Assembly: GCA_030626845.1 (NCBI GenBank)
Contig: DAOUTG010000014.1
Location: forward strand, 1-44,085
Reading direction: 5' to 3'
Origin: Methylococcaceae bacterium
GTDB taxonomy: Bacteria > Pseudomonadota > Gammaproteobacteria > Methylococcales > Methylomonadaceae
Length of the DNA: 44,085 bases
The notes under the pieces were generated by a model. It saw only the letters and a list, made by a program, of their open reading frames with translations, made no database searches and was not told where the DNA came from. The translations under genes and the position numbers were made by a program. Every line of letters starts with the position of its first letter. Positions within the stretch are counted from its first letter, which is position 1. This document shows, one piece after another, positions 8,681-27,140 of the stretch.

Positions 8681-8688
8681 AGAACAAC

Positions 8689-9285: not shown

Positions 9286-9421
9286 TTGATACCTTAAGTA
9301 AAAAAAATCATAAACACCCAAACATCCTATTAAGCTGTGTTTTAAAAAAAAGGCTTTTATTATAACAAAATATTTTAGTGCTTGTAAAATCGCAAGAGGA
9401 GTAGGAAATATTCATACAAAC

Positions 9422-9440: not shown

Positions 9441-9482
9441 ATTTAGATTAATATAGGTAGTCACTTTGTTAAAGGCTTACTT

Positions 9483-10778: not shown

Positions 10779-10790
10779 GGTCTAAAAAAC

Positions 10791-11303
10791 ATGTTTAAAA
10801 AAATAGTCTTATTATTCTTTATGAATTGCGCTGTTATTTACGCAGAAACCTATCAAAGCAAAGAAGATTTTTTAAATTATACTTTTGCCAATAATATTCC
10901 AGAACCTCAGTTATTATGGGTTAGTAAAGAAATAAGACCTAGTGTTGAAAAAATTCTTCAACATAAAGCAGGATTCTTACGCACTCGCTATTGGCAAGAT
11001 AAAACAAAAACCGTCTGGATTTTAGATGAAATAGGCAAAACAAAATTAATCACCGTGGCTGTGATTATTGAACAACAACAAATCGTACAATTAAAAGTAT
11101 TAGCCTTTAGAGAAAGCCGGGGCTGGGAAGTTAAGCATGAATTTTTCACCCAACAATTTGAGAAAATTGGTTTAGATAATGATTTACGGCTTACTCAAGC
11201 AATAGACGGTATTTCAGGCGCAACCCTTTCCGTTCGTGCATTGACTAAAACTGCACAACTTGCCTTATTGTTTGATAAAAAAATTAATGAAGAAGAAAAA
11301 TAA
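10791..11303 (+). CDS. Exported FMN-binding domain flavoprotein
   Basis: 170-aa periplasmic protein with signal peptide MFKKIVLLFFMNCAVIYAE. The C-terminal FMN-binding domain contains D139-G-I-S-G-A-T145-L-S. This matches the Dxx(S/T)GAT motif whose Thr is covalently flavinylated by ApbE (known for NqrC, RnfG and similar proteins). The preceding part (residues 45-130) fits the same fold. It probably carries electrons in the periplasm, paired with the overlapping PepSY membrane protein gene (17 bp overlap). No ApbE gene is in the window. The electron acceptor is unknown; ferric or cupric iron-type reduction is a reasonable guess from the context. Confidence 0.85.
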   Translation: MFKKIVLLFFMNCAVIYAETYQSKEDFLNYTFANNIPEPQLLWVSKEIRPSVEKILQHKAGFLRTRYWQDKTKTVWILDEIGKTKLITVAVIIEQQQIVQLKVLAFRESRGWEVKHEFFTQQFEKIGLDNDLRLTQAIDGISGATLSVRALTKTAQLALLFDKKINEEEK

Positions 11304-12024
11304 CGCTTTATTGTGGCGAATATTGCGTAAATCCCATTCTTATATTGGTTTAAGTTCTGGATTAGTTTTATTAATGCTTGCCCTAACAGGTATTACCTTA
11401 AACCACACAGAAACCTTAAAACTAGATAGTCATTTTGTTCAGAATAAGCACTTATTAGATTGGTACGGCATTGTTGCCCCTAAACCTAAGCGTGTTTTTA
11501 AAACCCCTACGCATTATTTAAGTCAATTGAATAACCAACTTTTTTTAAATGAAAAACTTATTTTAAACCTCCCTGATTTATTGCAAGGAGCTATTGAAAC
11601 AAAAAACTTTATAGCGGTTGCATTCACGGATTCAATTTTATTAGTCTCCTTAGAGGGAGAGGTTATTGAACAAATTGAACGACCTAATTTAACGCAAATT
11701 GGTATTAACAATTTGCAACATATTTTTATTAAGCAATCTGAAGTTTTTTATAGAAGTGATGATGCCTTATTAACTTGGACAACAACAGACACTAAAAAAA
11801 TTCAATGGTCAAAAATAGAACAATTACCCGTAGCAATCGAAAATAGTATACGACAACAATATCGGAGTCGCATTATACCTTTAGAACGTATTTTTCTTGA
11901 TTTGCATAGTGGACGTTTTTTTGGAAATATTGGGGTAATAATTGTTGATATTTGCGGTGTTTTATTAATTTTACTTGTTTTGTCAGGTTTGAGTCTTTGG
12001 TTAAAATATAATTTTAAGAAATAA
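11287..12024 (+). CDS. PepSY-associated transmembrane protein
   Basis: 245-aa inner-membrane protein. I start at ATG 11287 (MKKKNNALLWRILRKSHSY), which overlaps the FMN-binding gene by 17 bp; an earlier in-frame ATG at 11260 is less likely because it sits deeper inside that gene. A first membrane helix (about 20-38, GLSSGLVLLMLALTGITLNH) and a last one (about 213-238, IIVDICGVLLILLVLSGLSL) enclose a periplasmic domain. RKSHSYIGL and the RIFLDLHSGRFFG stretch before TM2 are the PepSY-TM signature, found in ferric-reductase-like systems. It probably relays electrons across the membrane to the FMN protein (inference). Confidence 0.82.
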   Translation: MKKKNNALLWRILRKSHSYIGLSSGLVLLMLALTGITLNHTETLKLDSHFVQNKHLLDWYGIVAPKPKRVFKTPTHYLSQLNNQLFLNEKLILNLPDLLQGAIETKNFIAVAFTDSILLVSLEGEVIEQIERPNLTQIGINNLQHIFIKQSEVFYRSDDALLTWTTTDTKKIQWSKIEQLPVAIENSIRQQYRSRIIPLERIFLDLHSGRFFGNIGVIIVDICGVLLILLVLSGLSLWLKYNFKK

Positions 12025-12051
12025 TTGTTTACATTAGCAAAACTGTTTAAA

Positions 12052-12082
12052 CCCCCTATAAAAAACTTTTTCTAATAGGGGG
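12052..12082. terminator. Bidirectional terminator between PepSY gene and lpoA
   Basis: An 8-bp GC-rich inverted repeat (CCCCCTAT at 12052-12059 and ATAGGGGG at 12075-12082) lies between convergent genes. Its loop contains complementary A and T runs that can extend the stem. On the minus strand the stem is followed by TTTAAACAGTTTT; the plus-strand side lacks a T-run, so it serves lpoA better. Confidence 0.65.
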
Positions 12083-12120
12083 AGATAACGGATTACGTTT
12101 AAAAATAAACCTTTGTAAAA

Positions 12121-13938
12121 TTATTCATTAACCGTTGTTGTGTTTTCTGGTTCTACAATAGGTGTTGGAGGTTGTGTGTTTTCTGTAGAAAACCCTAATA
12201 AGTGAGGTTTCCCACTCACAAATTGAGCGCAATATAATTCACGATTAATTCGATTATCAGATCCTAAAGTTAATTTTCCCGTCGCGCCTGGATAAGGTGT
12301 TATATTTAATTTATCTAAATGAGCAATCAAATTATAAGCATCTATCCCTAAGGGTAATAAACGTAAATAAGCAGAAGATAGTTCACCCCAAAGCGTATAT
12401 AATGCCGTTTTGCTTAAACTTCCCGTATAAACTTCGTCAAATACCCATGGAATATCACAAAATGTAATGCCATTAAGATTTTCATCACGAAATTTACTTT
12501 CTGAACCTTCATAAACATGAGAGGTTGTATAAATAGGTAAATTTGCTGTTTCTTGTTGATAACGTAATAACGGGTTTAAAACAGCGGCAGATTTTGTATA
12601 AGCATTCATAAAAATCATATCAACACCCCCACTATTAAGTGTTTTACTCGCTATCTTGTCAACAAGAGGGTTAAAATTTTCAGTCGTATTATAACTTTGT
12701 ATATCGGCAATATTTGCGCCTAAATGCTGCCAATGCTTTGTAAAATAATGACCAATACGTTCTCCTCTTTTTGAGCGAGGAATTAATAACAAGGCATTTT
12801 TATAACCATCTTGATAAGCTTTATAAGCCACTTGTTCGGCATCATCAATTGGGCTTAAGCCAAATTGATAAAGTTTTGGATGACTTAGCCCTTCGACATG
12901 ATTAAGTGCAAGAACAGGAACATTAAGATCAGTTCCCTTAACTAATGCACTCAGATATTGTTTATCCAAAGGCCCTATAATTAATTGCGCCCCTTCATTG
13001 ATTGCTTTTTGATATAAATTAACAATTCTTGTTTTTTTAGTATCATAAAAAATAATCTTTGCTTGATTAGGGTTTTGTTGAACAGCTAAATTGTAAGCCG
13101 CCATAAAACCTTTTTTAATCACACGAGCCGCTTTTGCATAAGCCCCTGAACGAGGTAAAAATACGGCAATTGTTGCAGGGGGTGAAAATCGGTGCTGATA
13201 TTTTTTTTCATATTCCAGTAAAATATCAGAGGTCACAGGGTGTTTAGGATACAGTTTTCGCCATCTAGCAAGACTACTGGCAAGATCAGTTTGGTTTGAG
13301 CGGAATAATGCGGCTAAAGCCACCCAGCCACCCAATGTTTTTGCTGTAGATATTTTTTGAGACTTGAGTGTATTTTCAGACGTGTTAATTAAGGTTTCTA
13401 AAATTCTATCATAGTACTGTAAACGCTTATTAGTGGAGGTAACCAAAGGATTTAAAGCAATGAGAGCTTGCACACTTTTTATTGGCTGACCTAATAAAGA
13501 ATAGGCTAAAGCTGACGAATCATAATAAGCATATTTAGAACGATTATCTAAAGAGGTAACTTGCATAGATTGGAATAACAGGGAAGCTTTTTTAAAATTC
13601 CCTGTTCCTAATAAAACCTGTGCTTGTAATAATTTCAGATGATTAACTTGTTTGGGCGTTAATTGGGCGGAATTAATCGCATTAATATATTTGTTACCTT
13701 GTTTAATATCACCCGATCCTATTAAAGCATCGGCAGCTAATAATTGAAATTGGCTGCGCTGATTCGTATTAAGTGTAGCTAAATCTATATAAATAGCCGC
13801 AGCCTCTTTATTTTTTCCTTGTTGAAGTAAAGATTCTGCTTGATTAATTTCAGAACGATGCATTAACTGTGTCGTTAAGGAACAGCCATACAAAAGAGGT
13901 AAGCTAAGAATTAATAATATTAAATAACGGTGTATCAT
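12121..13938 (-). CDS. lpoA: Penicillin-binding protein activator LpoA
   Basis: Outer-membrane lipoprotein that reaches through the periplasm to activate PBP1A (mrcA is also in this window at 31.9-34.5 kb). The 605-aa protein has lipobox LLYGC (Cys19), an N-terminal TPR-like helical domain (about 25-245) and a C-terminal periplasmic-binding-protein fold (about 255-575). Landmarks of the second are ATIAVFLPRSGAYAKAAR, IIGPLDKQYLSALV and DAYNLIAHLD. Length is normal (E. coli 678). The C-terminus ends in a short Pro/Thr/Glu tail. It is divergent from rsmI with only 34 bp between starts, the same arrangement as in E. coli yraM/yraL. Confidence 0.93.
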   Translation of the reverse strand: MIHRYLILLILSLPLLYGCSLTTQLMHRSEINQAESLLQQGKNKEAAAIYIDLATLNTNQRSQFQLLAADALIGSGDIKQGNKYINAINSAQLTPKQVNHLKLLQAQVLLGTGNFKKASLLFQSMQVTSLDNRSKYAYYDSSALAYSLLGQPIKSVQALIALNPLVTSTNKRLQYYDRILETLINTSENTLKSQKISTAKTLGGWVALAALFRSNQTDLASSLARWRKLYPKHPVTSDILLEYEKKYQHRFSPPATIAVFLPRSGAYAKAARVIKKGFMAAYNLAVQQNPNQAKIIFYDTKKTRIVNLYQKAINEGAQLIIGPLDKQYLSALVKGTDLNVPVLALNHVEGLSHPKLYQFGLSPIDDAEQVAYKAYQDGYKNALLLIPRSKRGERIGHYFTKHWQHLGANIADIQSYNTTENFNPLVDKIASKTLNSGGVDMIFMNAYTKSAAVLNPLLRYQQETANLPIYTTSHVYEGSESKFRDENLNGITFCDIPWVFDEVYTGSLSKTALYTLWGELSSAYLRLLPLGIDAYNLIAHLDKLNITPYPGATGKLTLGSDNRINRELYCAQFVSGKPHLLGFSTENTQPPTPIVEPENTTTVNE

Positions 13939-13972
13939 AAGAGTCTGTTGTATTTTATATAAAGGAGACTAA

Positions 13973-14830
13973 ATGTCAGATAGATATGGTAAATTATACG
14001 TTGTTGCAACCCCAATAGGCAATTTAGCAGATTTTAGTTATAGAGCAATTGAGACTTTACGGCAAGTTGATTTAATTGCCGCAGAAGATACTCGACATAT
14101 AAAAATTTTATTACACCATTATGGTATCACTGCAAAAACAATATCGCTACACCAACATAACGAAGACTATATTGCCCCACAATTAATAGAAAAGATGCAG
14201 CAAGGGTTGTCTATTGCTTTAGTTTCTGATGCAGGAACACCGTTGCTAAGTGATCCTGGAATGCCTTTAGTTAAATTGGCAAAAGGAAAAGGCATAGAAG
14301 TTTCACCTATTCCAGGGGCATGTGCATTAATCGCTGCTTTATCAGCGGCAGGACTTCCCACTCATCGTTTTTGTTTTGAAGGTTTTTTACCCAGAACCTC
14401 AACAGCGCGACAACAATTTTTTTCACAACGACTTGATTGGTCAATGACATGGATATTTTATGAGTCTAGCCATCGGATTTTAGCCTGCCTTGAAGATATG
14501 GCGACGATTTTACCCCTAGATAGATCCTTAGTCATCGCAAGAGAAATAACTAAACTTCATGAAACTATTGTCAAACAAAGCTTAGGCGAAATGCTAACGC
14601 AGGTTCAAACTGACCCTAATATGCAAAAAGGTGAGTTTGTCGTTATTGTCGAAGGCATTAAAGTTGATAAGAAAGCCCAACTTATTAGTTCAGAACATAC
14701 CGAACTTCTACAAATTTTATTAGAAGAGTGCTCTACAAAAACTACAGCCTCTATCGCCTCAAAAATAACAGGTATTCGTAAAAAATTACTGTACCAAGCC
14801 GCATTAGAATTAATCTCAGAATCTAAATAA
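13973..14830 (+). CDS. rsmI: 16S rRNA (cytidine1402-2'-O)-methyltransferase
   Basis: Methylates the ribose of C1402 in the ribosomal P site, using SAM. The 285-aa protein shows the family landmarks in order: YVVATPIGNLADFSYRAIETL at the N-terminus (here written in two parts: YVVATPIGNLAD, FSYRAIETL), AAEDTRHIKILL, SDAGTPLLSDPGMPLV, IPGACALIAALSAAGLPT and CFEGFLPR. The start has a strong AAAGGAG eight bases upstream. lpoA is on the opposite strand 34 bp away. A TATATAA-like -10 lies just upstream, implying a very short leader. Confidence 0.96.
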   Translation: MSDRYGKLYVVATPIGNLADFSYRAIETLRQVDLIAAEDTRHIKILLHHYGITAKTISLHQHNEDYIAPQLIEKMQQGLSIALVSDAGTPLLSDPGMPLVKLAKGKGIEVSPIPGACALIAALSAAGLPTHRFCFEGFLPRTSTARQQFFSQRLDWSMTWIFYESSHRILACLEDMATILPLDRSLVIAREITKLHETIVKQSLGEMLTQVQTDPNMQKGEFVVIVEGIKVDKKAQLISSEHTELLQILLEECSTKTTASIASKITGIRKKLLYQAALELISESK

Positions 14831-14910
14831 CTATTTCTATATAATGTTTTTTTCGATTCAGCATAATATATAAGCTATTTTCTTAACTTGATTAAAGCAG
14901 GAATGAATAA

Positions 14911-16350
14911 ATGAATTCACAATGGGAAACCGTCATAGGTTTAGAAATCCACACCCAACTCGCCACCAAAACAAAAATTTTTTCAGGGGCGGTAACCGCT
15001 TATGGTGCAGAGCCTAATACCCAAGCCTGTGCGGTTGATTTAGCGATGCCAGGGGTATTACCTGTTTTAAATCAAGAAGTCGTTAGTTTAGCGATAAAAT
15101 TTGGTTTAAGCATTGATGCTGAAATTGCCCCTTATTCTGTTTTTGCCCGAAAAAATTATTTTTATCCTGATTTACCTAAAGGTTATCAAATTAGTCAGAT
15201 GGATGATCCTATTGTTGGCAAAGGACATATTGACATTGATATTGAGGGTAAAAGTAAACGTATTGGTATAACACGCGCTCATTTAGAAGAAGATGCAGGA
15301 AAATCCCTACATGAAGATTTTCAAGGGTTATCAGGCATTGATTTAAACCGCGCAGGAACGCCTTTATTAGAGATCGTCTCAGAACCTGAAATGAGTTCGG
15401 CCAAAGAAGCCGTTGCTTATATGCGTAAAATTCATGAATTAGTCCGTTATTTAGAAATTTCTGATGGCAATATGCAAGAAGGCTCATTTCGCTGTGATGC
15501 TAATGTTTCAGTTCGTCCAGTCGGTCAAAAAGAATTAGGGACACGGGCTGAATTAAAAAATATCAACTCCTTTAAGTTTGTTGAAAAAGCGATTAATATT
15601 GAAATTGAACGTCAAATTGATGTCATTGAAGCGGGCGGGAAAGTTGTACAAGAAACGCGTCTTTATGATTCAGTAAAAAATGAAACTCGCTCAATGCGAA
15701 GTAAAGAAGAGGCAAATGATTACCGTTACTTCCCTGATCCTGATTTATTACCCGTTGAAATTGACGAAACCTTAAAAGCCGAGATTAAAGCGAATTTACC
15801 CGAACTACCGACGGCGAAAAAGCAGCGTTTTCAAGAAATATACGGTTTAGATAGTGAAACGGCTAATAATTTAACCAGCTCACGACAGTTTGCTGATTTT
15901 TATGAAACCATCATTAAAGAATCAGGCGGTGACATTAAATTATGTACCAATTGGGTAACAGGTGATTTAGCAGGTGCATTGAACAAATCAGGACTAGATA
16001 TTAGTCAATCTCCCATTGATGCAATGCGTTTAGCAGGGTTATTAAAACGTATTGGCGATAAAACCATTTCAGGAAAAATTGCCAAACAAGTTTTTGAAAT
16101 TTTATGGCAAGGACAAGCGACTGCCGATGAAATTATTGAAAAAGAAGGTTTAAAACAAATCACCGATACAGGGGCAATTGAAGCGATTATTGATAAAATT
16201 ATTGCCGATAATACCGCGCAGGTTGAGCAATATCAAAGTGGTAAAGAAAAAGTCTTTGGTTTTTTTGTCGGTCAAGTGATGAAACAAACTCAAGGCAAAG
16301 CGAATCCTGCTGATGTTAATAAAATGCTCAAGAAAAAATTAAGCGTCTAA
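14911..16350 (+). CDS. gatB: Aspartyl/glutamyl-tRNA(Asn/Gln) amidotransferase subunit B
   Basis: Subunit of GatCAB, which turns Glu-tRNA(Gln) or Asp-tRNA(Asn) into Gln- or Asn-tRNA. The 479-aa protein starts with [20 protein letters not shown] and includes [46 protein letters not shown] and a C-terminal YqeY-like tail ([17 protein letters not shown]). Length and motifs are complete. It stands alone here after rsmI; gatC and gatA, often directly upstream, are not in the window, so the operon is split or located elsewhere. Confidence 0.97.
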
Positions 16351-16366
16351 TTTTAATCTTATTTAT

Positions 16367-16402
16367 TGAGGATTATGAATTTTCAAAAAACAATAATCCT
16401 CA
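16367..16402. terminator. Terminator hairpin between gatB and the anti-sigma gene
   Basis: A perfect 10-bp inverted repeat (TGAGGATTAT at 16367-16376, ATAATCCTCA at 16393-16402) with a 16-base loop lies between two convergent genes. A TTTTT run follows nine bases later on the plus strand. It probably stops gatB transcription and possibly also the minus-strand sigma/anti-sigma operon. Confidence 0.6.
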
Positions 16403-16414
16403 TAACCTTGATTT

Positions 16415-16663
16415 TTAATTCCCTTTTTGCAAGGACTTAAGCTTATCTTGAATTCGTTTTTTTGCTTCAGTTGATAAAGTAATGGATTGCTGATGTTTAT
16501 CAATATTTTTTGCAAAATTTTGAATTACCCCTAACTGTTTTGCATAATATCGACAGGTTTTGCACATCCATAAATGTACGGTCATCTCTACACGCTCCCA
16601 TTTTAAAAGCCTTGTATCTTGTTGTTTTGATGTTAACTCAATAATTTGATTACACTTTAACAT
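16415..16663 (-). CDS. Soluble ZAS-type zinc anti-sigma factor
   Basis: 82-aa cytoplasmic protein with the zinc anti-sigma arrangement Cys4...His30-x3-Cys34-x2-Cys37 (HLWMCKTC). There is no membrane segment, as in RsrA- or ChrR-like soluble anti-sigmas. In such proteins the zinc/thiol centre is often redox- or ligand-responsive (family knowledge). It overlaps the 3' end of the sigma factor gene by 7 bp, the normal arrangement for an anti-sigma with its cognate sigma. Oxidant sensing here is inference, favoured by the peroxiredoxin-kinase gene 1 kb away. Confidence 0.85.
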   Translation of the reverse strand: MLKCNQIIELTSKQQDTRLLKWERVEMTVHLWMCKTCRYYAKQLGVIQNFAKNIDKHQQSITLSTEAKKRIQDKLKSLQKGN

Positions 16664-17241
16664 AAGTCTTTTCCTTGATTAAACCAGTGTGTTTCTAAAC
16701 ATTGCCTTAATTTCATTCGTGTTCTTGATAAGGCAACCCATAATTGATTATCGGTTTTAAACCCTAATAATTGACGACATTCTTCAGTAGATACACCATC
16801 TACGACCCGTAAAATAAATAATTGAGCCATCGTATCGGATAAACGCGATTGACAGTGATAAAAAGTTTGCCAAAATTCCTTTGATTCCAATTCTTTTTCA
16901 GGTATTGCCCAATCCACTAAATCAATCCGCCAGTTTCCTTGGGGATCAAATTGATAACTCATCAAATCCTCACCTAAATCTGTTTCGGTTAATAAAGGTT
17001 GTTCTCGTTTAGATTTTCGATAAAAATCTATAATTTTATGCTTTAAAATTCCAACTAGCCATGAGCTTACCGATGAATTGTAGTTAAAATTTTCAACCGC
17101 TTGAATTGCCGCTAACAAAGTTTCTTGTAATAAATCTTCTGCCATCATTTCACAACGAACCCGTATAAGAGCATAGCGATAAAGCATATCGCCATAATCA
17201 TTTAACCAGTTTTCAGGATTTACAGTCACTGTCTCTTTCAT
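16657..17241 (-). CDS. ECF-type RNA polymerase sigma factor
   Basis: 194-aa sigma-70 family factor. Region 2 is at about 15-85 (ALIRVRCEMMAEDLLQETLL; NYNSSVSSWLVGILKHKIID), with a divergent acidic linker (residues 95-130). Region 4 is at about 130-190 (LSDTMAQLFILRVVDGVSTEECRQLLGF, given in parts: LSDTMAQLFILRVVDGVSTE, ECRQLLGF, then WVALSRTRMKLRQCLE). Regions 1.1 and 3 are absent, so it is an extracytoplasmic-function type. It is co-transcribed with the overlapping zinc anti-sigma gene and is divergent from doxX, with a shared 199-bp promoter region. Confidence 0.92.
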   Translation of the reverse strand: MKETVTVNPENWLNDYGDMLYRYALIRVRCEMMAEDLLQETLLAAIQAVENFNYNSSVSSWLVGILKHKIIDFYRKSKREQPLLTETDLGEDLMSYQFDPQGNWRIDLVDWAIPEKELESKEFWQTFYHCQSRLSDTMAQLFILRVVDGVSTEECRQLLGFKTDNQLWVALSRTRMKLRQCLETHWFNQGKDLC

Positions 17242-17316
17242 AAATTCAAGTTAAGATTAATTTTCAAAGTAGCCAGTATATCTGATAACTGTCTGAATTA
17301 ATCACAGCGATATTTC

Positions 17317-17399
17317 TATAAGTCGTTTGAATAATTATTTTCTTACAAAAAAATAAAAATTTATTTCGCGTAAGTTCTGGTTTTATCAAACGACTTATA
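17317..17399. promoter_or_regulatory. Perfect 14-bp inverted repeat in the sigma/doxX promoter region
   Basis: TATAAGTCGTTTGA at 17317-17330 and its exact reverse complement TCAAACGACTTATA at 17386-17399 are separated by 55 bp of AT-rich sequence. Read outward, each divergent gene sees the same element: the right copy ends 41 bp before the doxX ATG, the left copy 75 bp before the sigma ATG. A perfect TATAAT (17412-17417) lies 12 bp past the right copy. This fits a shared operator or activator site, or the ECF sigma's own promoter element. The structure is certain; its use is inferred. Confidence 0.7.
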
Positions 17400-17440
17400 A
17401 GCCCAAGCTTATATAATGAACAATTTTGGAGAATGTAACC

Positions 17441-18034
17441 ATGTTAGATTTTTTTAATAAAGCACAACGAATACTTAATCTAAGTACCAAGGCTGATTTT
17501 ATTGCCCCCTTAGTTTTGAGACTTTATTTAGCCCCCATTATGTGGATGGCAGGCACTAAAAAACAAGCCGATTTTGACAATACTGTTCAGTGGTTTGGAA
17601 ATAGTGAATGGGGCTTAGGATTACCATTCCCCAGTGTTCTCGCATCATTAGTAACCAGTGTTGAAATAATAGGGGCTATTTTTTTATTACTAGGCTTTGC
17701 TGTACGTTGGATTTCTATTCCACTTTTTTTCACTATGATAGGGGCTGCATTAAGTGTTCATTGGAAAAATGGCTGGTTAGCTATTGCTGAATCGAGTGGT
17801 TTTTTTGCCAATGAACGAACGATTGAGGCGGGAGTACGATTAGCAAAAGCAAAAGAAATTTTACATACTCACGGTGATTATGAATGGCTGACGGAAAACG
17901 GTAGTTTTGTTATTCTTAATAATGGCATCGAATTTGCTGTAACTTATAGCCTTATGTTGTTAATTTTATTTTTTATGGGGGCAGGGCGTTATTTAAGTAT
18001 TGATTATTGGCTGGCTCAAAGATTTATAAAATAA
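17441..18034 (+). CDS. DoxX-family membrane protein
   Basis: 197-aa integral membrane protein of the DoxX/quinol-oxidase-associated family. The start at ATG 17441 is set by GGAGAATG upstream (an earlier in-frame TTG at 17426 overlaps this ribosome binding site). It begins LVLRLYLAPIMWMAGTKK and has about four hydrophobic helices, including SLVTSVEIIGAIFLLLGFAV, FFTMIGAALSVHW and SLMLLILFFMGAGR, with a longer soluble loop around 120-165. DoxX homologues affect redox or quinone metabolism in other bacteria. It opens a likely operon with the peroxiredoxin-kinase gene, 56 bp downstream. Confidence 0.85.
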   Translation: MLDFFNKAQRILNLSTKADFIAPLVLRLYLAPIMWMAGTKKQADFDNTVQWFGNSEWGLGLPFPSVLASLVTSVEIIGAIFLLLGFAVRWISIPLFFTMIGAALSVHWKNGWLAIAESSGFFANERTIEAGVRLAKAKEILHTHGDYEWLTENGSFVILNNGIEFAVTYSLMLLILFFMGAGRYLSIDYWLAQRFIK

Positions 18035-18090: not shown

Positions 18091-19482
18091 ATGGTTAATA
18101 ATAAAATTGCCGCATCAATTACAGAATTAGATTTATCTAAAGATTATATTTTACTTGTTGATAGTATGAGCCAGCAGCTTGGTGAGAAAGGGATTGCAAC
18201 GGGGATTTCTTTAGGGGAAACAGCCCCCGATTTTTGTTTAAAAAACCATCAAGGAGAGGATGTCTATTTAAACGAAATTTTGCAAACTGCCCCTGTTATT
18301 TTATCTTTTTATCGGGGTGATTGGTGTCCTATTTGTCAAATTGAGTTGAAAGCACAACAAGAAGCTTTAGAAGAAATAACCGCTATGGGAGGACGTTTAT
18401 TAGCTATTGCGCCACAAACTTCTGAAAAAGCCCTTCGATTGTATCAAGACATGGGCTTAGATTTTGAGTTATTAAGTGATCCAGAACAAAAAGTGATCAA
18501 AAACTATCAATTGCAATTTGAAGTGCCTGAAAGTTTACGGCAATTTCATAGAAATTTAATAAAGAAAGATGATATTAATGGCTCATGGGATTTACCTGTT
18601 CCTGCAACTTTTGTGTTAGACCAGCAAGGTGTTGTTTGTGGGCGATATGTTTCTGCTGATTTTTTGACTCGCATGGAACCTATTGAAATAATTGGAACTT
18701 TAGAGCGGTTATTAGGAAAAGATGAAGCACTTTCGGCTTATTTACATAGCAAAAATGAAATATTGCGTAATACATTAAAAGAATTAACTCAAACGCAAGC
18801 GCAATTGCTACAAAAAGAAAAGAAAGCGGTTATTGGTGATTTAACCTCAGGTTTAGTTCATGAAATTAAAAACTTATTAAATCCTATTAGCTTTCTTGAT
18901 TTAATGATGAATGATCTTTCTGTTAAACATCAGCAATATGCAGAATATATTTATGATAGTCGCACGCGTATTTTAGAACTTATTGATGAAGTTAGATTAT
19001 TGTCAAAGGAGGAAGAAGTTCATTACAAAACAAGTTCTTACTCATTAAGTTTATTGATAAAAGAAGTTGTTAATTTATCACTTTTAGATGAAGATGTTAA
19101 AAATCAAACGATTTATTTTGAATTAAATTATCAAGGTAACGTACAGATTGATAAAAATAAAATTATTCAGGTATTACTGAATTTAATTCGTAACGCGGCT
19201 CACGCACTTACTAATATGCCTGAAAAAGGGATAATCACTATTAAAACACAAGAGGAAAATGGTTTTGTGACAATTTCTATTATTGATAATGGTATTGGAA
19301 TGGGGAAAGAGGTATTAGATAAAATTTGGCAACCTTTTTTTACCACTAAAGGTGATAACGGTACAGGATTAGGATTGGATATTTGCCGTAACATTATTGA
19401 GAATCATGGGGGGGAAATTGGCTGTGAAAGCCAAATAAATAAAGAAACTCGGTTTTATTTTTCTTTGGGTAAGGGCGAATAA
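18091..19482 (+). CDS. Peroxiredoxin-like domain fused to a histidine kinase
   Basis: 463-aa predicted cytoplasmic protein. Residues about 40-205 form an AhpC/TSA-type thioredoxin fold of the PRX-like group (FYRGDWCPICQIEL; Cys79 and Cys82, VPATFVLD with the likely cis-Pro), with another Cys at 183. A coiled-coil linker follows (about 215-245). Residues 246-310 hold the phospho-acceptor box with His257 (GLVHEIKNLLNPI). Residues 320-460 form the kinase ATPase domain: N-box NLIRNAAHAL, DNGIGM, FFTTK, GTGLGL. No membrane segment and no adjacent response regulator. The redox state of CPIC probably controls kinase activity (inference). A decayed paralogue lies at 25.9-26.6 kb. Confidence 0.88.
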   Translation: MVNNKIAASITELDLSKDYILLVDSMSQQLGEKGIATGISLGETAPDFCLKNHQGEDVYLNEILQTAPVILSFYRGDWCPICQIELKAQQEALEEITAMGGRLLAIAPQTSEKALRLYQDMGLDFELLSDPEQKVIKNYQLQFEVPESLRQFHRNLIKKDDINGSWDLPVPATFVLDQQGVVCGRYVSADFLTRMEPIEIIGTLERLLGKDEALSAYLHSKNEILRNTLKELTQTQAQLLQKEKKAVIGDLTSGLVHEIKNLLNPISFLDLMMNDLSVKHQQYAEYIYDSRTRILELIDEVRLLSKEEEVHYKTSSYSLSLLIKEVVNLSLLDEDVKNQTIYFELNYQGNVQIDKNKIIQVLLNLIRNAAHALTNMPEKGIITIKTQEENGFVTISIIDNGIGMGKEVLDKIWQPFFTTKGDNGTGLGLDICRNIIENHGGEIGCESQINKETRFYFSLGKGE

Positions 19483-19531: not shown

Positions 19532-21611
19532 AAGCAAGAAAGACAAGGAACGTTTATAAGAAGACTTGATGTTTTATTAGAACCCACTAAAGAACAAGTG
19601 CTTAAAACGAAGCAATTTTTAGATGAAAAGGGAATTGAGGGGCAAAGCCGTTTAAAAAAAGATTCTGGTTATGTTTTTTTTAATACTTCACGATTCACTT
19701 TTAAAAGCTTACTTGATGAACCCAGCAAGATTAAAGAAAACTTTGAAGTTTATCTAAATGGTTATAGTGAGAATGTTCAAGAAATTATTAGTAAATTTAA
19801 GCTAAGAAACCAGCTTGAAACAATGGATGAAGCCAATATTTTATACGGAATAGTCGATAAATTTTGTTCTAAAGATATAAATCTAAGCCCTAAACCTGTT
19901 TTAAACCGCGAGGGCGATGTGGTGATGGCAAATTTAACTAATTTAGGAATGGGTTATGTTTTTGAAGAATTAATCAGGCGATTCAACGAAGAAAACAACG
20001 AAGAAGCAGGGGAACATTTCACCCCTAGAGAAGTTATTCAGTTAATGACTCACATGGTTTTCTTACCTGTTAAAGACAGTATTCAAGAGGGAACTCACCT
20101 TGTTTATGACCCTGCTTGTGGTTCAGGTGGAATGTTGACCGAAGCCGAGTATTTTATTCATGACTTAGAGGGTGAAATTCGGTCTAAAGCAATCTGTGGT
20201 TTGTATGGGCAGGAATTACAAGCAGAAACTTATGCTATTTGTAAGGCAGATATGATGCTTAAAGAAGATCATCCTGAACCTGATAATATCGCCTTTGGTT
20301 TTACTTTACAGATTGATAAGCATTCACCATTAAAATTTGATTTTATGCTTTCTAATCCGCCTTATGGTAAATCGTGGAAGTCGGACTATGACACTATTGT
20401 GGGCGAAAAAAAGGAAATTATAGACCCTCGTTTTACTGTGGAAGTGCCTAGAAGTAGTGACGGTCAATTACTATTTTTAGTTAATATGCTTTCTAAAATG
20501 AAACATGACACCAAACAAGGAAGCCGTATTGCAACCGTTCATAATGGTTCAGGTTTGTTTACTGGAGATGCGGGAAGCGGTGAAAGTAATATTAGGCAAT
20601 GGATTATTGAAAATGATTGGCTAGAGGCTATTGTCCAACTGCCTAAAAATCTGTTTTATAACACGGGTATCACTACTTATATTTGGGTATTAAGTAACCG
20701 TAAAGCAGAACATCGTAAAGGTAAAATTCAGCTTATTGATGCCAGTCAGCAGTTTGAAAAAAATGCGAAAGAGTTTAGGAAATAAAAATTGCCAGTTTTC
20801 ACCTGAACATATCAAAAATATTACTGATACTTACCTTGATTTTATAGAAAATGAAGATGCTAAGATTTTTGATAATGCGGATTTTGGTTTTAATAAAATC
20901 ATTGTAGATAGACCTTTAAGGCTTTCAGCTAAAATTACTGATGAAGCGATTGAAAGTTTACGATTTATCGACAAGCTAAGGGATTTGATGAGCTATTTTT
21001 ATGCGAAGCATCCGCAAGCGGTTTATGAAGATTTAGAAAGTTTAAAAAATCCGTTTGAAGCTTATGTGAAATTGGAAGAAATAAAAGTGAGTCCAGCGGA
21101 TAAAAAGAAATTTTTTAATGTTGAAACTTGGAAACATCAACTTGAAGTCATGGCGATTGCTAAAAAGTTACAAGCTAAGGTTGATAAAGAATTTAACGAT
21201 TTTAATGCTTTTAAAAAGGCAATTGATAAGGCTTTAAAAGATTTAGGTTTAAAGTTTGATAATGCTGATAAAAAGGTTTTCTTGTCTGCGGTAAGTTGGA
21301 AAGATGAGCAAGCTAAGGAAGTGATTAAAAAGAAGACCGCAAAGGGAGTTGAATTTGAAGCGGATAGTGATTTAAGGGACTCTGAAAGTGTGCCGTTAAA
21401 AGAGGATATTCAGGTTTATTTTGATAGGGAAGTATTGCCGTTTGTAGCGGATGCTTGGATTGACCATAGTAAAACGGTTAAGGGTTATGAGATTAATTTT
21501 AATCGTCATTTTTATAAACCTAAGCAATTAAGGACTCTTGATACCATTAGGGCGGATATTTTGGCTTTGGAAGATGAAACCGATGGTGTGCTTAACTCTA
21601 TTATTCACTAA
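19532..21611 (+). pseudogene. hsdM: Type I restriction-modification DNA methyltransferase subunit HsdM, 5'-truncated and frameshifted
   Basis: Adenine methyltransferase subunit of a type I R-M system. Open reading starts after a stop at 19529 and picks up the family in mid-domain (RRLDVLLEPTKEQVL), so roughly the first 50 residues, including the normal start, are missing. A GTG at 19598 is the only early in-frame start. The SAM motif DPACGSGGML and catalytic NPPYG are intact. At 20757-20763 seven As cause a shift after EFRK. With six As the reading continues as FEKMRKSLGNKNCQFSPE into the C-terminal part (ending in a D-rich HsdM tail at 21611). Could be a real pseudogene, slippage-controlled, or a base-call error. 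Confidence 0.85.
20757..20763 (+). other. hsdM: A7 tract at the hsdM frameshift
   Basis: Seven consecutive As between TTTG and TGCG put the downstream part of hsdM out of frame by +1; six As would restore FEKMRKSLG. Homopolymer indel, slippage or sequencing error are all possible. Confidence 0.8.
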
Positions 21612-21620
21612 GGACAGTTT

Positions 21621-22880
21621 ATGAAAACATACGAGAAATATAAAAATTCAGGGGTTGAATGGATAGGGGATATTCCTGAGAATTGGGAAGTTAGAAGGCT
21701 TAAATATATTGCAAAAATATATACAGGTACTACTCCAAAATCTAGTAACCCTAAATTTTATAAAGAAGAAATTAATTGGTTTACACCTTCTGATTTAAAG
21801 GTAAAGAATCTAAAATCCTCAAACAGGAAAATATCTAATTTAGCTATTAATCTTAGAGAATGTAAGTTGTTTAATGAAAATAGTGTCTTATTAGTTTCTA
21901 TAGGTGGAACTTTAGGGAAGGTATCTTACTCATTGAATAAATTTTGTTGTAATCAACAAATAAACGTGATTGGTGATTTTAGAGTTTGTGATTATAAATT
22001 TGTTTTTTATTATATTAGTATTTTTCCAGATGTATTAAACAATTTAGCTATTGTAATTACATTACCAATTTTAAACCAAAGCAGATTAAAAGATTTTTTT
22101 ATACCATTTGTACCACTTCAGGAACAACAAAAAATAGCTTCTTTCCTTGATGATAAAAGCCAAAAAATAGAGCAGTTTATAAAAAATAAACAAAGGCTTA
22201 TTGAATTACTGGAAGAGGAAAAGAAAACCCTAATTACTCAGGCGGTGACAAAAGGGATTAACCCTGATGTGAATTATAAAAATTCAGGAGTTGAGTGGAT
22301 AGGCGATATTCCTGAATATTGGGAGATTAGGAAGTTAAAATTTTGTGTAGACTTAGTAAATAATCAAAAGACTATAAATAATAGAAAATATATAGGCTTA
22401 GAAAATATAGAAAGTTGGACAGGTAAAATTATAAATTTAGATATTAATATAGAAGTTGAAGGAGTAAGCAAAAACTTTAAAAAAGGGAATGTTTTATTTT
22501 CTAAATTAAGACCTTATTTAGCAAAGGCTTTTATTGCTGATTTTTCAGGAATTTGTACAAGTGAGTTATTAGTTTTTAAAGCTAAGTTATTCAATAAATA
22601 TTTTTTATTAAATTTATTTCTAACAAGTAAGTTTATAAGTTTAATTGATAGCTCTACTTATGGTTCAAAAATGCCAAGAGCTAATTGGAATTTTATAGGA
22701 AATATATTAGTTTCAATTCCACCGCTTAATGAACAAAAACAAATCGTCAATTACATCGAAGAAAAAAGTCAACAGATAGACGAATTAAAAGCCAAATATC
22801 AACAAGAAATAGACCTGATAAACGAGTACAAAGAACGTCTGTGTTATGATGCCGTGACAGGAAAGATAAAAATACCGTAG
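21621..22880 (+). CDS. hsdS: Type I restriction-modification specificity subunit HsdS
   Basis: 419-aa DNA-recognition subunit. Two target-recognition domains (about 15-150 and 215-350) each begin with a near-identical segment: SGVEWIGDIPENWEVRRLK and SGVEWIGDIPEYWEIRKLK. Each is followed by a conserved helical spacer: QQKIASFLDDKSQKIEQFI and KQIVNYIEEKSQQIDELKA. This two-TRD circular layout predicts a split asymmetric target. The first spacer carries LIELLEEEKKTLITQAVTKG. The gene lies 9 bp after hsdM. Its stop codon TAG sits inside the left arm of an inverted-repeat element, so the original C-terminus may have been a little longer. No internal frameshift. Confidence 0.93.
   Translation: MKTYEKYKNSGVEWIGDIPENWEVRRLKYIAKIYTGTTPKSSNPKFYKEEINWFTPSDLKVKNLKSSNRKISNLAINLRECKLFNENSVLLVSIGGTLGKVSYSLNKFCCNQQINVIGDFRVCDYKFVFYYISIFPDVLNNLAIVITLPILNQSRLKDFFIPFVPLQEQQKIASFLDDKSQKIEQFIKNKQRLIELLEEEKKTLITQAVTKGINPDVNYKNSGVEWIGDIPEYWEIRKLKFCVDLVNNQKTINNRKYIGLENIESWTGKIINLDINIEVEGVSKNFKKGNVLFSKLRPYLAKAFIADFSGICTSELLVFKAKLFNKYFLLNLFLTSKFISLIDSSTYGSKMPRANWNFIGNILVSIPPLNEQKQIVNYIEEKSQQIDELKAKYQQEIDLINEYKERLCYDAVTGKIKIP
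21639..21690 (+). repeat. hsdS: hsdS internal repeat, copy 1
   Basis: Encodes YKNSGVEWIGDIPENW at the start of the first recognition domain and is highly similar to copy 2, 636 bp downstream. Such repeats in hsdS allow recombination that swaps or removes recognition domains. Confidence 0.8.
22275..22326 (+). repeat. hsdS: hsdS internal repeat, copy 2
   Basis: Encodes YKNSGVEWIGDIPEYW at the start of the second recognition domain; only a few bases differ from copy 1. Confidence 0.8.
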
Positions 22881-22947
22881 GTGCAGATTTATCTGCATCC
22901 GAATGATATTTTTTGGTTATTAAAAATGCAGATAAATCTGCACCTAC
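22877..22947. mobile_element. 71-bp palindromic MITE/REP-like element between hsdS and hsdR
   Basis: Perfect 22-bp terminal inverted repeats (22877-22898 and 22926-22947, beginning GTAGGTGCAGATTTATCTGC) enclose a 27-bp centre. Each arm contains its own small palindrome, GCAGAT-TT-ATCTGC. Flanks are AAAAATACC on the left and AAAAATCAC on the right (7 of 9 identical), compatible with an imperfect target duplication. The left arm supplies the TAG stop of hsdS, and the right arm ends 10 bp before the hsdR ATG. It carries no gene and probably moved in trans. Confidence 0.75.
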
Positions 22948-22957
22948 AAAAATCACT

Positions 22958-25857
22958 ATGCCAACAAAAACCAATGAAGAAAGCTTTGAAGCTTTAATCG
23001 AAAAAAGCTTAATACAAGAATCAGGCTACTTTCAAGGTGAGTCACAAGACTACAATAAAGATTATTGCCTTGATACTTTGCAACTTTTCAACTTCTTAGA
23101 AGAAACCCAAGCCGACACTTTAGCCGAATATAAAAAGAAACGAGGCGAAAATTACAAAGAGTTACTTTGTAAACGAATTTATCAACAAATTCAACAAAAG
23201 GGCATTGTAGAGCTACTAAGAAAAGGCATTAGTGACCAAGAGTTAAAATTTCAATTACTCTATAAACAACCCACCTCAGATAAAAATCCGCAAAGTATCA
23301 GCCGTTATCAACAAAATCGTTACTCAGTCACAAGACAACTCTATTACAGCGATAAAAACCGCAATTCCTTAGATATGGTGATTTTTATAAACGGTTTACC
23401 GCTTATCACTTTTGAGTTAAAAAACCACTGGACTAATCAAACCGTTGAAGAGGCTAAAAAACAGTATAAAAAAGACCGTGACCCTAAAGAGCCGCTCTTT
23501 CAACTTGCTCGCTGTTTAGTACATTTTGCGGTTGATACTAACGAAGTTTATATGACGACCTATTTAAACGGACAGAAAACCGTTTTTTTACCGTTTAATA
23601 AGGGACACGCTAACGGCAAAGGCAACCCTTTAAATCCTGATGGGATTAAAACGGATTACTTGTGGAAGTCGATTTTAACTAAAACTTCATTGAGTAACAT
23701 CATAGAAAATTATGCTCAATTCTTAAAAAAAGAAAAAAAGCTTATTTTTCCTAGATACCATCAATTGAATGCAGTTATAAAAATACTCGCCCATGCTAAA
23801 GCAAACGGTACAGGGCAAAAATATTTAATTCAGCATTCCGCAGGTTCAGGGAAAAGTAACTCTTTAACTTGGCTTGCTCATCAATTGGTAGAACTACATT
23901 CTAGCGATGATAAAGTGATCTTTAATTCCGTTATTGTTGTTACAGACCGTAGGGTTTTAGATAAACAAATAAGGGATAACATTAAGCAATTTGCTCAAGT
24001 TAATAATGTAGTTGAAGCAATTACACAAGGTAGCCAGCAGTTAAAAAGTGCTTTGGAAAATGGTAAAAAAATTATTATTACTACTATTCAAAAATTTCCC
24101 TTTGTAGTGGAGGAAATAGCCGAATTAAAAGGCAGTCGTTTTGCCATTATTATTGATGAAGCTCATTCTAGCCAAACAGGGGAGACAGCAGGAAAAATGA
24201 ATACGACCTTATCAAGTGAATTTGATAGCGAAGATGAGGTCATTAAGGCGATGGAGTCTAAAAAGTTACCTAAAAATATTAGTTATTTTGCTTTTACTGC
24301 GACCCCTAAAAATAAAACTTTAGAGCTGTTTGGGACTAAAACTAGTGAGGGAAAAAGAGAGCCATTTCATTTATATTCTATGAAACAAGCCATTCAAGAA
24401 GAATTTATTTTAGATGTTTTGAAAAATTACACCACCTATAAAAGTTATTATAAATTATTACAAACAGCAGAAAATAACCCTGTTTTTGATACCTCAAAAG
24501 CTAAGAAAAAAATTAAAGCTTATGTTGAGGGACATGAATTCACTATTGCTAAAAAAACGGCGGTGATGGTGGATGATTTTATGACCAAAACTAAAGACAT
24601 AAACGGCAAAGCTAAAGCAATGGTGGTTACCAGTAGCATTATTAATGCAATTAAGTACAAGCAAGCTTTTGATGAATATTTAAAAAAAATTCATTCGCCT
24701 TATAAATCCATTATCGCCTTTTCAGGGAAAAAAGAATTTAAAGGGGATGGTTACACCGAAACAGGAATAAACGGTTTTGATAGCGGTAAAATTCCTGAAA
24801 AACTCAAAGAAACAGAATACCGTTTTTTAATCGTGGCAGAAAAATTTCAAACGGGGTTTGATGAGCCATTATTGCACTCAATGTATGTTGATAAACCTTT
24901 AAAGGGTGTTCAAGCGGTGCAAACTTTATCAAGACTAAATAGAGCTTATAAACCCTATAAAAGTGATACTTTTGTTTTAGATTTTGTGAATACGACCAAA
25001 GAGATAAAAGAAGCTTTTGACCCTTATTATGAATGTATTTTATTAAGCGAAGATACCGACCCAAATAAATTAAATGACTTAGAAGAGGCATTGGCAGATT
25101 TTCAAGTTTACGAAAAGCAAGAAGCTCAAGATTTCACCGCAAATTATTTTGCAAAGAAAGATAGGGAAGAACTAGAAAAAATATTGATAGTCATGTGGCT
25201 CTTTTTAATGAGCTAGAAACTGATGAGCAAGTGGGCTTTAAAGTTAAAGCTAGTTCATTTGTAAAAACCTATGCTTTTTTAGCTTTGATTATTCCATTTA
25301 ATAAAAAATATTGGGAAGAATTGTATTGGTTCTTAAAATTCCTAATTCCTAAATTAAAACTAAAAGTCAACAATGAAAGTATAGAGGGCTTACTTGATAG
25401 CATTGATTTAGATAGCTATACCCAACACAGACAGGCTTTAAATCAAGATATTATCCTAGATAATGGAGTTACAGAAATAGACCCCATTACTCCGCAGATG
25501 AGAGGTTCTAAAGCCGAACCTGAAAAAGAATTTTTGCAAGAAATTATCGCTGAATTTAATAAAAAATGGGGCGAAACTGAGTTTGGTAAAAATGACCTTG
25601 TTACCAAGATATTATTTGAAGACTTAACCAGTAAAATTGCGATAAATGAAGAATATATCAGGGCAACAAAGTTTTCAGATGTACAAAATTCTAAAATTAC
25701 CTTTGATAAAATGATGGAAGATAAAATACAAGGTTTAGTCTTTGATTACACGGATTTATATAAGGAATTTGAGGAAAATAAGGCTTTTAAAAACGATATT
25801 TTAGGGATGATGTTTAAGGTTGTTATGGATAAGCAGAATATTGGGATAAGGGTTTAA
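22958..25857 (+). pseudogene. hsdR: Type I restriction endonuclease subunit HsdR, frameshifted near the C-terminal quarter
   Basis: Motor and nuclease subunit. ATG 22958 (MPTKTNEESFEALIEKSL) is the natural start; longer reading runs into the palindromic element. The nuclease core has SLDMVIFINGLPLITFELKN (D...E-x-K). The translocase has Walker A AGSGKS, DEAHSSQTGE and FTATPKNK. At 25176-25181 there are six As. With seven, the frame would continue as EKNIDSHVALFNELETDEQVG into the remaining 220 residues, which end at 25857. As written, the first frame stops at 25216, leaving a protein of 752 residues without the C-terminal HsdM/S-contact region. Probably inactive unless the A-tract slips or is misread. 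Confidence 0.87.
25176..25181 (+). other. hsdR: A6 tract at the hsdR frameshift
   Basis: Six As after CTAG place the following sequence out of frame; seven would rejoin the two hsdR parts without loss. This is the opposite one-base error to the A7 in hsdM. Confidence 0.8.
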
Positions 25858-25864
25858 CACTTTA

Positions 25865-25921
25865 ATTAACCTGAGTTCGGGATAAGCTATCCCATAACAG
25901 ATAATAAATTTATAGGTTAAT
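25865..25921. repeat. Nested inverted repeats at the right end of the R-M cassette
   Basis: An outer pair, ATTAACCT (25865-25872) and AGGTTAAT (25914-25921), encloses an inner hairpin GGGATA-AGC-TATCCC (25879-25893). It lies right after the hsdR stop and could act as a weak terminator or mark the cassette edge. No matching sequence was found at the left edge. Confidence 0.35.
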
Positions 25922-25926
25922 ATTTT

Positions 25927-26596
25927 TTAGTTGCAAATACGTTGGTAACATTTGAAGATATACTTGTAATTTAATTCGTTGATTCTTGAAAAATCATCTA
26001 CCATTAGATCAAAAAAGCTAATAGGGTTTAACAGATTTTTAATTTCATGTACCAAACCTGCAGTTAAATCTCCAATAACAGCCTTCTTTTCTTTACGTAA
26101 TAACTGTTCTTGCGTTCGAGTTAATTCTTTTAATGTACTCCGTAAAATTTCATTTTTACTGTGTAAATAAGAAGCAAGTGCCTGATCTTTACCCAATAAT
26201 CTTTCCAAAGTTCCAATAATTTCAATAGGTTCAATTCTAGTTAAAAAGTCAGATGAAACATGTCGCCCACATATTATTCCTTGTTGATCCAATACAAATG
26301 TAGCAGGCACGGGTAAATTCCATGAACCATTAATATTATCTTGTTGCGCTTTCAATTTGACAAACAGGACACCAATCGCCTCGATAAAAAGATAAGACAA
26401 CATGTAATACTTTATTTAAATAAATATCATCGCCATTATAATTTTTCAAACAAAAATCAGGGGCTTGATTTCCTAAAGAAATTCCTGTTGCAATCTTATC
26501 TTCACTAAGTTGCTGACTCATGCTGTCAATGAGTAAGGTGTATTCTTTAGATAAATCTAATTCAATAATTGTGTTGTAGTTTAATACCTAGATAAA
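25927..26596 (-). pseudogene. Decayed inverted paralogue of the peroxiredoxin-histidine kinase gene
   Basis: On the minus strand this matches the gene at 18091-19482 in order: LDLSK.YTLLIDSMSQQL, GISLGNQAPDFCLKNYNGDD, FYRGDWCPVCQIE, then NGSWNLPVPATFVLDQQG, RLLGKDQALASYLHSKNEIL and LVHEIKNLLNPISFFDLM. Damage: no ATG at the expected start and an in-frame TAG there; a 5-bp loss after CQIE; a 207-bp in-frame deletion of the segment matching residues 91-159, with AAGA at both ends in the intact gene; and loss of the whole kinase ATPase domain at the left end. Many differences are third-position changes, so the copies diverged long ago. Confidence 0.88.
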
Positions 26597-26698
26597 TAAT
26601 GTTTATGTGTTTAGACACATGGAGTATCTAGAAGTAAATATGTAACAGAAAAATTTGCTTGATCGAGACTTTAAAAACAATTATTACTAGATAAATAC

Positions 26699-26726
26699 TT
26701 GACAGATTAACAGAGTTAGATAAACT
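26699..26726 (+). promoter_or_regulatory. Candidate sigma-70 promoter of the ComEA-like gene
   Basis: TTGACA at 26699-26704 is a perfect -35. TAAACT at 26721-26726 (four of six matches) follows with a 16-bp spacer. The start codon is 34 bp downstream. Upstream, ATGTGT-TTAG-ACACAT (26605-26620) is a short palindrome of unknown use. Confidence 0.55.
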
Positions 26727-26759
26727 GTGGGATTCTTTTTAATGCATAGAGATTTTCAC

Positions 26760-27056
26760 ATGAAAAAAGTTTTATTTCTAGTATTTGTTTTTCTTTCAGC
26801 GCAAGTATTAGCAGAACCAGTTAATATTAATACTGCTGATGCTGAAATTATTGCGGAATCTTTGAATGGTATTGGTGTGAAAAAAGCTCAAGCCATTATT
26901 GAATATCGTACTGTTAATGGAGATTTTAAAACTGTAGCATCATTAATGGAAGTTTCTGGAATTGGCGAAAAAACTATTGAAAATAATAAAGATAATATTT
27001 TGTTAATTGATGTGATTGTTCCAAAAAAAGTTGTAACTAAGGTAATAAAAAAATGA
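26760..27056 (+). CDS. Exported ComEA-like helix-hairpin-helix protein
   Basis: 98-aa protein with signal peptide MKKVLFLVFVFLSAQVLAEP and then one ComEA helix-hairpin-helix domain (VNINTADAEIIAESLNGIG, KAQAIIEYRTVNGDFKTV, LMEVSGIGEKTIENNK). Periplasmic ComEA binds incoming DNA in naturally competent bacteria and works with type IV pili, whose pilMNOPQ genes are also in this window. I start at ATG 26760 because the longer form from 26727 would put 11 residues before a clean signal peptide. The Lys-rich tail may help DNA contact. The gene is convergent with aceF. Confidence 0.88.
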   Translation: MKKVLFLVFVFLSAQVLAEPVNINTADAEIIAESLNGIGVKKAQAIIEYRTVNGDFKTVASLMEVSGIGEKTIENNKDNILLIDVIVPKKVVTKVIKK

Positions 27057-27058
27057 AG

Positions 27059-27096
27059 ATAAGCCTGTAAAAATTTTTACGCTTTTACAGACTTAT
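27059..27096. terminator. Terminator between comEA-like gene and aceF
   Basis: ATAAGCCTGTAAAA (27059-27072) pairs with TTTTACAGACTTAT (27083-27096) in a 14-bp stem with one mismatch and a 10-base loop. On the minus strand it is followed within eight bases by TTTTTTTATT, giving a good intrinsic terminator for aceEF. It may also stop the comEA-like transcript. Confidence 0.72.
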
Positions 27097-27140
27097 TCAG
27101 GTAACTTAATCAGATTAAATTAAATTTTAGCTAGTGCAAA

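Follow-up and report, generated by a model that had tools for sequence, protein, structure and literature searches.

A soluble histidine kinase fused to a peroxiredoxin-fold CxxC domain, apparently confined to one genus, in a Methylomonadaceae genome

What does a soluble histidine kinase sense when its input domain resembles a peroxiredoxin, and is such a chain a working signalling protein? The question is raised by prxHK, a gene in a contig of a Methylococcaceae bacterium (genome G000; the window is the whole stretch of 44,085 nucleotides that we analysed). The protein, PrxHK, belongs to a known kind, the histidine kinases, and is marked out by its unusual input domain. To our knowledge, histidine kinases that read the thiol state of the cell are few, and little is understood of how a disulphide might drive the helical switch in a soluble enzyme of this kind. 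The reading that we favour, and hold to be slightly better than an even call, is that thiol redox state gates PrxHK and that its partner regulator is encoded at an unlinked site.

Architecture and distribution of the fused gene

The gene and its parts are as follows.

18091..19482, + strand: prxHK, PRX-like/histidine-kinase fusion, 463 aa (open reading frame, Pfam, orthologue in genome G008)
18199..18720, + strand: PRX-fold sensor domain, residues 37-210 (AF2 model, VIA-align, profile alignment)
Landmarks of the sensor: CPIC at residues 79-82, Pro171 and the fusion-enriched Cys183 (profile alignment, column counts)
18724..18834, + strand: helical linker, residues 212-248, entering the DHp helix (AF2 helix 212-240)
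18835..19020, + strand: HisKA/DHp, residues 249-310, with the phospho-acceptor His257 (Pfam, motif position)
19150..19467, + strand: HATPase_c, residues 354-459, with the N, G1, F and G2 boxes (Pfam, motif positions)

The frame runs from an ATG at 18091 to a stop ending at 19482, and three Pfam domains were detected above their curated cut-offs: AhpC-TSA at residues 42-182 (E 2.9e-27), HisKA at 249-309 (E 1.3e-6; 28.8 bits, cut-off 26.9) and HATPase_c at 354-459 (E 1.1e-22). These results agree with the coordinates and domains given by the first-pass annotation, which had been made from the sequence alone. The sensor carries C79-P-I-C82, H257 lies within HEIKN, and the kinase boxes NLIRN (364-368), DNGIGMG (399-405), FFTTKG (416-421) and GTGLGL (424-429) are intact. 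Six cysteines are present, at positions 49, 79, 82, 183, 432 and 445. No membrane helix was found in PrxHK, for which the highest 19-residue Kyte-Doolittle mean was 0.99; the threshold for a membrane helix is usually near 1.6. With His257 and all boxes intact and hydropathy at or below 0.99, the earlier description of a single chain with a complete, soluble kinase stands. PADLOC defence models gave 0 families for the protein at E 1e-5. PrxHK is a true fusion, apparently genus-specific, of a PRX-fold CxxC domain and a soluble histidine kinase.

With the full-length query, the fusion was found in 3/237 family genomes, and these three belong to a single one of the 29 genera, which does not bear out the idea of a widespread architecture. 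In the phylum sample 2/339 genomes passed, namely G000 itself and G783, the latter matching over residues 26-207 only. Six candidates were scored per genome in the family search and four in the phylum search, a depth that might overlook a weakly matching fusion. The N-terminal domain alone was detected in 61/369 genomes of the class at E 1e-12, standalone where checked, and in 14/201 genomes of the family at E 1e-8. None of the five places listed in the class outside the genus with frames longer than 400 aa had the kinase half; three of these five lay among the 30 loci retrieved by the class search and two were retrieved in addition, and the listed places that had no locus were judged by their shorter frame only. 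In a scan of 84,980 species genomes, through which phyla beyond the window's own were covered, no fusion was found among the best 80 of at least 583 matching stretches; a kinase-like stretch lay in the flank of 6 of these 80 standalone loci, a count that has no background rate beside it. Viral contigs gave 37 pattern matches to the fusion, none of them confirmed. On plasmids, 3257 records matched the PrxHK query, two of them covering at least 80% of it; among the ten matches listed, identity was 23.5-31.7%, several of these being to annotated kinases. As far as sampled, these searches make the prxHK fusion look genus-specific. No peroxiredoxin-histidine kinase fusion was named in the open-access literature searched, and within that literature the earlier remark that the pairing has no characterised example holds.

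Fold and active site of the sensor domain

The AF2 model scored high over residues 31-210 (pLDDT 86-98 in ten-residue blocks, with one block at 77), lower over the linker helix 212-240 (about 57-74) and poorly over the kinase half (often below 60). By VIA-align, the sensor model matched AhpE and Bcp4 with a Z of 22.0 and an rmsd of 1.4-1.9 over 151-158 residues, and because of this match we call the modelled fold of the sensor a peroxiredoxin fold. Together with the AhpC-TSA Pfam match, this agrees with the redox-type fold proposed earlier.

The active site was read from profile alignments with the PrxQ-type structures 2ywn and 2cx3 and with ResA. Cys82 aligned with the peroxidatic Cys of both PrxQ-type structures, Cys79 fell on the Thr (2ywn) or Ser (2cx3), and the Pro of PxxxT/SxxC was matched by Arg75; in this alignment that active-site motif is absent from the PrxHK sensor. 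Only in a second, weak alignment segment (7.7 bits) did Pro171 face an Arg, presumably the catalytic one, of 2ywn. The W-C-P-x-C stretch of PrxHK aligned on the WCPHC of ResA, and its PVPATF on the PLPTTF of ResA, the latter again only in a weak second segment (4.9-6.5 bits). Among the NCBIfam families listed, none reached its cut-off with the sensor, and of the peroxidase models the best was thiol peroxidase, with 45.3 bits against the 140 needed. R75, G76, W78, C79, P80 and C82 were identical in 33/33 standalone relatives and in both fused proteins, and D130, P169, R194 and P197 were likewise invariant; P171 was kept in 32/33 standalone relatives. Cys183 was present in 1/33 standalone relatives versus both aligned fused proteins, the copy on contig C84 of genome G035 and the decayed copy described below.

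One interpretation is that PrxHK senses peroxide directly, with Cys82 as a peroxidatic cysteine reacting fast with H2O2, Cys79 as the resolving cysteine and the kinase reading the result. The position of Cys82 on the peroxidatic Cys of PrxQ/Bcp-type proteins and the nearest folds, those of AhpE and Bcp proteins, are what such a sensor should have, but the Pro and Thr of PxxxTxxC are taken by R75 and C79, P171 apparently occupies the place of the catalytic Arg, and the best peroxidase model listed falls far below its cut-off; we consider direct peroxide sensing unlikely. Because R75 and C79 replace the Pro and Thr and leave a ResA-like CxxC, canonical peroxide catalysis is less likely than thiol-disulphide sensing, and the sensor is likelier a thiol-disulphide module in a peroxiredoxin fold, the cysteines of which would be redox active. 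Of the first-pass annotation, the PRX fold remains, and its proposal of peroxide sensing is weakened by the lack of PxxxTxxC and, apparently, of the catalytic Arg.

The PRX-like domain could also be a docking module in the style of SasA and KaiC, which binds HvfX, thioredoxin or another protein and leaves its cysteines unused for sensing. The N-terminal KaiB-like domain of SasA serves a soluble kinase in this way (PMC3161067), and HvfX is encoded by the adjacent gene. However, the family-invariant residues around CPxC are retained in the fused proteins, and the sensor matches an AhpC-TSA model, not a KaiB model: in Pfam, no KaiB model was found on PrxHK at E up to 0.01, and AhpC-TSA and Redoxin were. 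Docking alone seems to us a rather doubtful account of the domain.

If the thiol-disulphide reading is right, PrxHK would be a cytoplasmic, presumably dimeric kinase whose input is a PRX-fold CxxC thiol module. A thiol partner or an oxidant would convert Cys79 and Cys82 into a disulphide, which might be relayed to Cys183. The oxidation would alter the shape or packing of the sensor domain, and this change would reach the DHp bundle by way of the helical linker, where it would switch His257 autophosphorylation versus phosphatase action on an unlinked response regulator.

Copies of the gene in a probably chimeric contig

In G008, a genome of the same genus assembled in five contigs, a 465-aa protein has the same architecture as PrxHK and is 79% identical to it over residues 2-459; because of this orthologue, prxHK is not an assembly accident of a single contig. 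The copy on contig C84 of G035, a genome of another species, is 83% identical over residues 2-459 with one stop at codon 56, and the second G035 copy is decayed. No prxHK match was found at E 1e-8 in 3/6 genomes of the genus, the completeness of which is 92%, 83% and 73%. A decayed copy had also been noticed in the window itself, and its position has to be read together with that of the neighbouring hsdM.

19598..20785, + strand: hsdM, type I methyltransferase (PADLOC MTase_I), with a probable join inside it near 20,750
25933..26572, - strand: decayed fusion copy in two frames, 68-72% identical, in the G035-matching part of the contig

From 20,750 rightward the window is 99.9-100% identical to G035: there are zero mismatches to G035 contig C52 over 20,750-27,714, 11 mismatches after 27,714 and up to 34,100, and 34,033-44,085 is 100% identical to G035. 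G035 had no other long match than C52 to this right stretch, with 40 candidates scored per genome. On the left, 72 mismatches to C52 were counted over 19,541-20,749, and the part tested (9,400-17,300) is 65-79% identical to G035 in larger pieces and 69-85% identical to other members of the genus. The window's hsdM encodes 395 aa versus 448 in G035 and is 53 residues shorter at the N-terminus. G000 carries further aceE/aceF-like genes on contig C38, 74-76% identical to those of the window, and a further PBP1A-like gene on C2, 68% identical to the window's (names by eye). From these sequence matches, we regard the contig as a probable chimera whose join lies near 20,750, within hsdM. Such a join, in a gene that both genomes seem to share, best explains the match pattern; the alternative, natural recombination between co-resident relatives at the join, is less favoured.

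The join separates the two copies, with the intact prxHK to its left and the decayed one to its right. The decayed copy noticed at first reading does exist, in two frames, but it sits in the G035-matching part of the contig; it would belong to the other species and is not good evidence of a paralogue in G000, and the earlier use of it as a sign of long retention in G000 fails because it lies right of the join. The case calls for caution, since what looked like a second copy lies on a contig in which two species are apparently mixed. Independent support for retention across species comes from the intact orthologue in G008 and from low dN/dS.

Values of dN/dS were calculated by NG86 with the N-terminal 39 residues left out. 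Between G000 and G008 they were 0.046 (linker), 0.073 (PRX domain), 0.077 (DHp) and 0.176 (ATPase domain), ratios that are rough given synonymous sites near saturation (dS 1.07-2.23 in this intact pair). Residues 209-250 gave 0.025-0.055 in three pairs, and such a conserved linker would fit what a working signal helix needs. Purifying selection on the gene does not by itself mean that its two domains communicate. Values against the G035 copy were also low (0.025-0.184), and because of this the stop in that copy may be either recent or an assembly error.

The gene seems dispensable, because G035 has a stop in one copy and decay in the other and three of the six genus genomes gave no match; possibly it is decaying in one species. 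Could PrxHK then be a recently formed fusion that is decaying and has no present function? Such an origin would accord with the stop, the decayed copy and the three genomes in which no match was found, and also with the restriction-modification genes next to three of the four prxHK copies and the seemingly rearranged stretch upstream of the one on G035 C84. Against this, the two full-length copies share 79% identity, their synonymous sites are almost saturated, and dN/dS over the linker and both domains stays at 0.05-0.18, the N-terminal 39 residues being left out. We therefore regard a functionless, decaying fusion as highly improbable.

Some further observations were made around the copies. 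Type I restriction-modification genes lie beside the copies in the window (19598-25857) and on G035 C52 (locus L139, 8277-14695), an Eco47II-type endonuclease and a C5 methylase lie beside the copy on G035 C84 (locus L138, 4967-6995), and the G008 copy has no restriction-modification neighbour. Upstream of the C84 copy, in L138 8490-9270, 78 bases are 99% identical to window 27138-27215, which is the 3' end of an aceF-like gene; the L138 counterpart is near the contig end, and the stretch may represent a rearrangement or an assembly break. Between the window gene and the C84 copy, synonymous differences per site were 0.36 in the PRX part versus 0.56-0.62 in the linker, DHp and ATPase parts, and the lower divergence (18091-18717 against L138) may reflect recombination within the gene.

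Neighbouring genes, partner regulator and known systems

Upstream of prxHK lie three genes that resemble part of an Hvf locus.

17426..18034, + strand: hvfX/doxX, directly upstream of prxHK with a 56-nt gap (NCBIfam NF050144, 226.7 bits, cut-off 80)
16657..17241, - strand: ECF sigma factor, divergent from hvfX (Pfam Sigma70_r2, NCBIfam sigma70-ECF above cut-off)
16415..16663, - strand: anti-sigma factor family protein (NCBIfam NF052368, 60.3 bits, cut-off 50)

The order hvfX-prxHK recurs in G008 (locus L137, 7555-8154 then 8213-9610, 58-nt gap), where the surrounding genes differ: upstream is a short protein bearing a CxxCH motif like that of cytochrome c (by eye, without a family match), and downstream a DUF4126 protein. 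hvfX is not beside the prxHK copy in G035, and it is present in 6/6 genus genomes versus 3 for prxHK. A promoter scan of the hvfX-prxHK stretches gave 7 promoter-like matches per genome, below the shuffled means of 10.6 and 8.2. No terminator-like site was found in the window stretch around the pair, and the one in the G008 stretch lies inside hvfX rather than between the genes; these counts speak neither for nor against an operon. Bufferin clusters include DoxX genes in their core (PMC12452194), and bufferins reportedly aid growth under copper stress. Because the intact prxHK follows hvfX in both species, a thiol- or copper-stress role is suggested for the pair on the strength of two genomes, and the signal would probably be a redox or copper-linked thiol stress.

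A more specific proposal is that the CxxC and Cys183 bind Cu(I), which would make PrxHK a cytoplasmic copper or thiol-metal sensor of the Hvf (oxazolone/thioamide RiPP) locus. The adjacent hvfX and the place of DoxX genes in bufferin clusters speak for it, as do the homologous hvfX loci with an hvfA-like gene in G035 and G077; in G035 the locus holds an hvfA-like RiPP gene, a sigma gene and an anti-sigma gene (the last by eye), and on its contig C22 the homologue of the window's ECF sigma gene adjoins the hvfA-like gene. In the window, however, no hvfA is present in the 184 nt that separate hvfX from the sigma gene, the aligned standalone proteins all have CPxC, hvfX occurs without prxHK in half of the genus genomes, and a DoxX-like stretch was found at E 1e-3 near only 3/80 standalone loci (the best 80 of at least 583), which indicates no general link. 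A copper sensor in this strict sense is very unlikely in our estimation.

As to the loci themselves, window 16415-18034 resembles a remnant of an Hvf locus, with anti-sigma gene, ECF sigma gene and hvfX but without hvfA, and hvfA-like matches elsewhere in G000 (C12, C18, C89) have scores below the cut-off. In G077 (locus L143, 1-955), a second DoxX-like membrane protein follows hvfX (by eye; no family match), together with an AhpC-TSA protein that is cut by the contig end and is nearest to SelL-related redox proteins, below the model cut-off; the homologous locus there thus has a further redox-fold gene.

No response regulator adjoins prxHK in the window or in the G008 and G035 flanks (names by eye; in G035 only some 520 bases of contig precede the gene), as had been said of the window at first reading. 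The G000 genome has 50 receiver-domain matches, none on the window contig and several apparently unpaired, and no partner could be assigned from 14 receiver regions by eye and 9 proteins by Pfam. A search with the kinase half alone at E 1e-32 found 1/321 class genomes, its own, and no parent kinase (at most 8 candidates scored per genome). By its kinase half, PrxHK comes nearest to AtoS and ZraS, and among structures to 9jfj of ZraS. Of the five closest G000 kinases outside the window contig, four (on C15, C54, C65 and C56) adjoin proteins with receiver and Sigma54_activat domains, and the fifth (C38) lies in a frame of 1141 aa that also encodes a receiver domain; because of these neighbours, a sigma-54-type regulator is, by analogy, a plausible partner of PrxHK.

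PrxHK is most likely a lineage-specific redox-gated kinase. The fuller picture, a genus-specific one-chain thiol-disulphide sensor kinase, soluble and NtrB/AtoS-like, that works with the membrane protein HvfX and an unlinked, possibly sigma-54-type regulator, is put forward tentatively as a possibility of modest weight; if true, thiol or copper stress would be linked directly to a two-component output. As PrxHK is one soluble chain, it should purify easily, and cysteine chemistry and kinase output would be measurable on the same protein.

Among known systems, cyanobacterial SasA likewise places an N-terminal KaiB-like input of thioredoxin-like fold before dimerisation and catalytic domains; its KaiB-like input binds KaiC, whereas that of PrxHK is an AhpC-TSA domain with CPIC. 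KaiB is without the catalytic cysteines of thioredoxins (PMC3161067). The standalone CPxC AhpC/TSA proteins of many phyla belong to the same domain family as the PrxHK sensor, with 34-43% identity, but are without the kinase half, both in the best 80 of at least 583 loci and in the 5 listed class places. The PRX-like 2 proteins (PAMM/adiporedoxin) are, we presume, tied to the PrxHK sensor by the motif. In adiporedoxin the CXXC is required for redox activity (PMC5150245). ResA, TlpA and DsbE share WCPxC and a P-x-P-x-T-F stretch with PrxHK, the ResA alignment of the latter being weak; in contrast to them, PrxHK has a peroxiredoxin as its best structural match, has no membrane helix and is fused to a kinase. 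NtrB/AtoS/ZraS-type kinases resemble PrxHK in its kinase half, but the closest of them in G000 have an adjacent regulator, which prxHK does not. Finally, an oxidative signal enters a histidine kinase pathway in HprS of E. coli and in Mak2/Mak3 of fission yeast with Tpx1 (PMC9302797, PMC3644883), and PrxHK may be likened to both; HprS, as described there, differs in being part of a reactive-chlorine-sensing pair.
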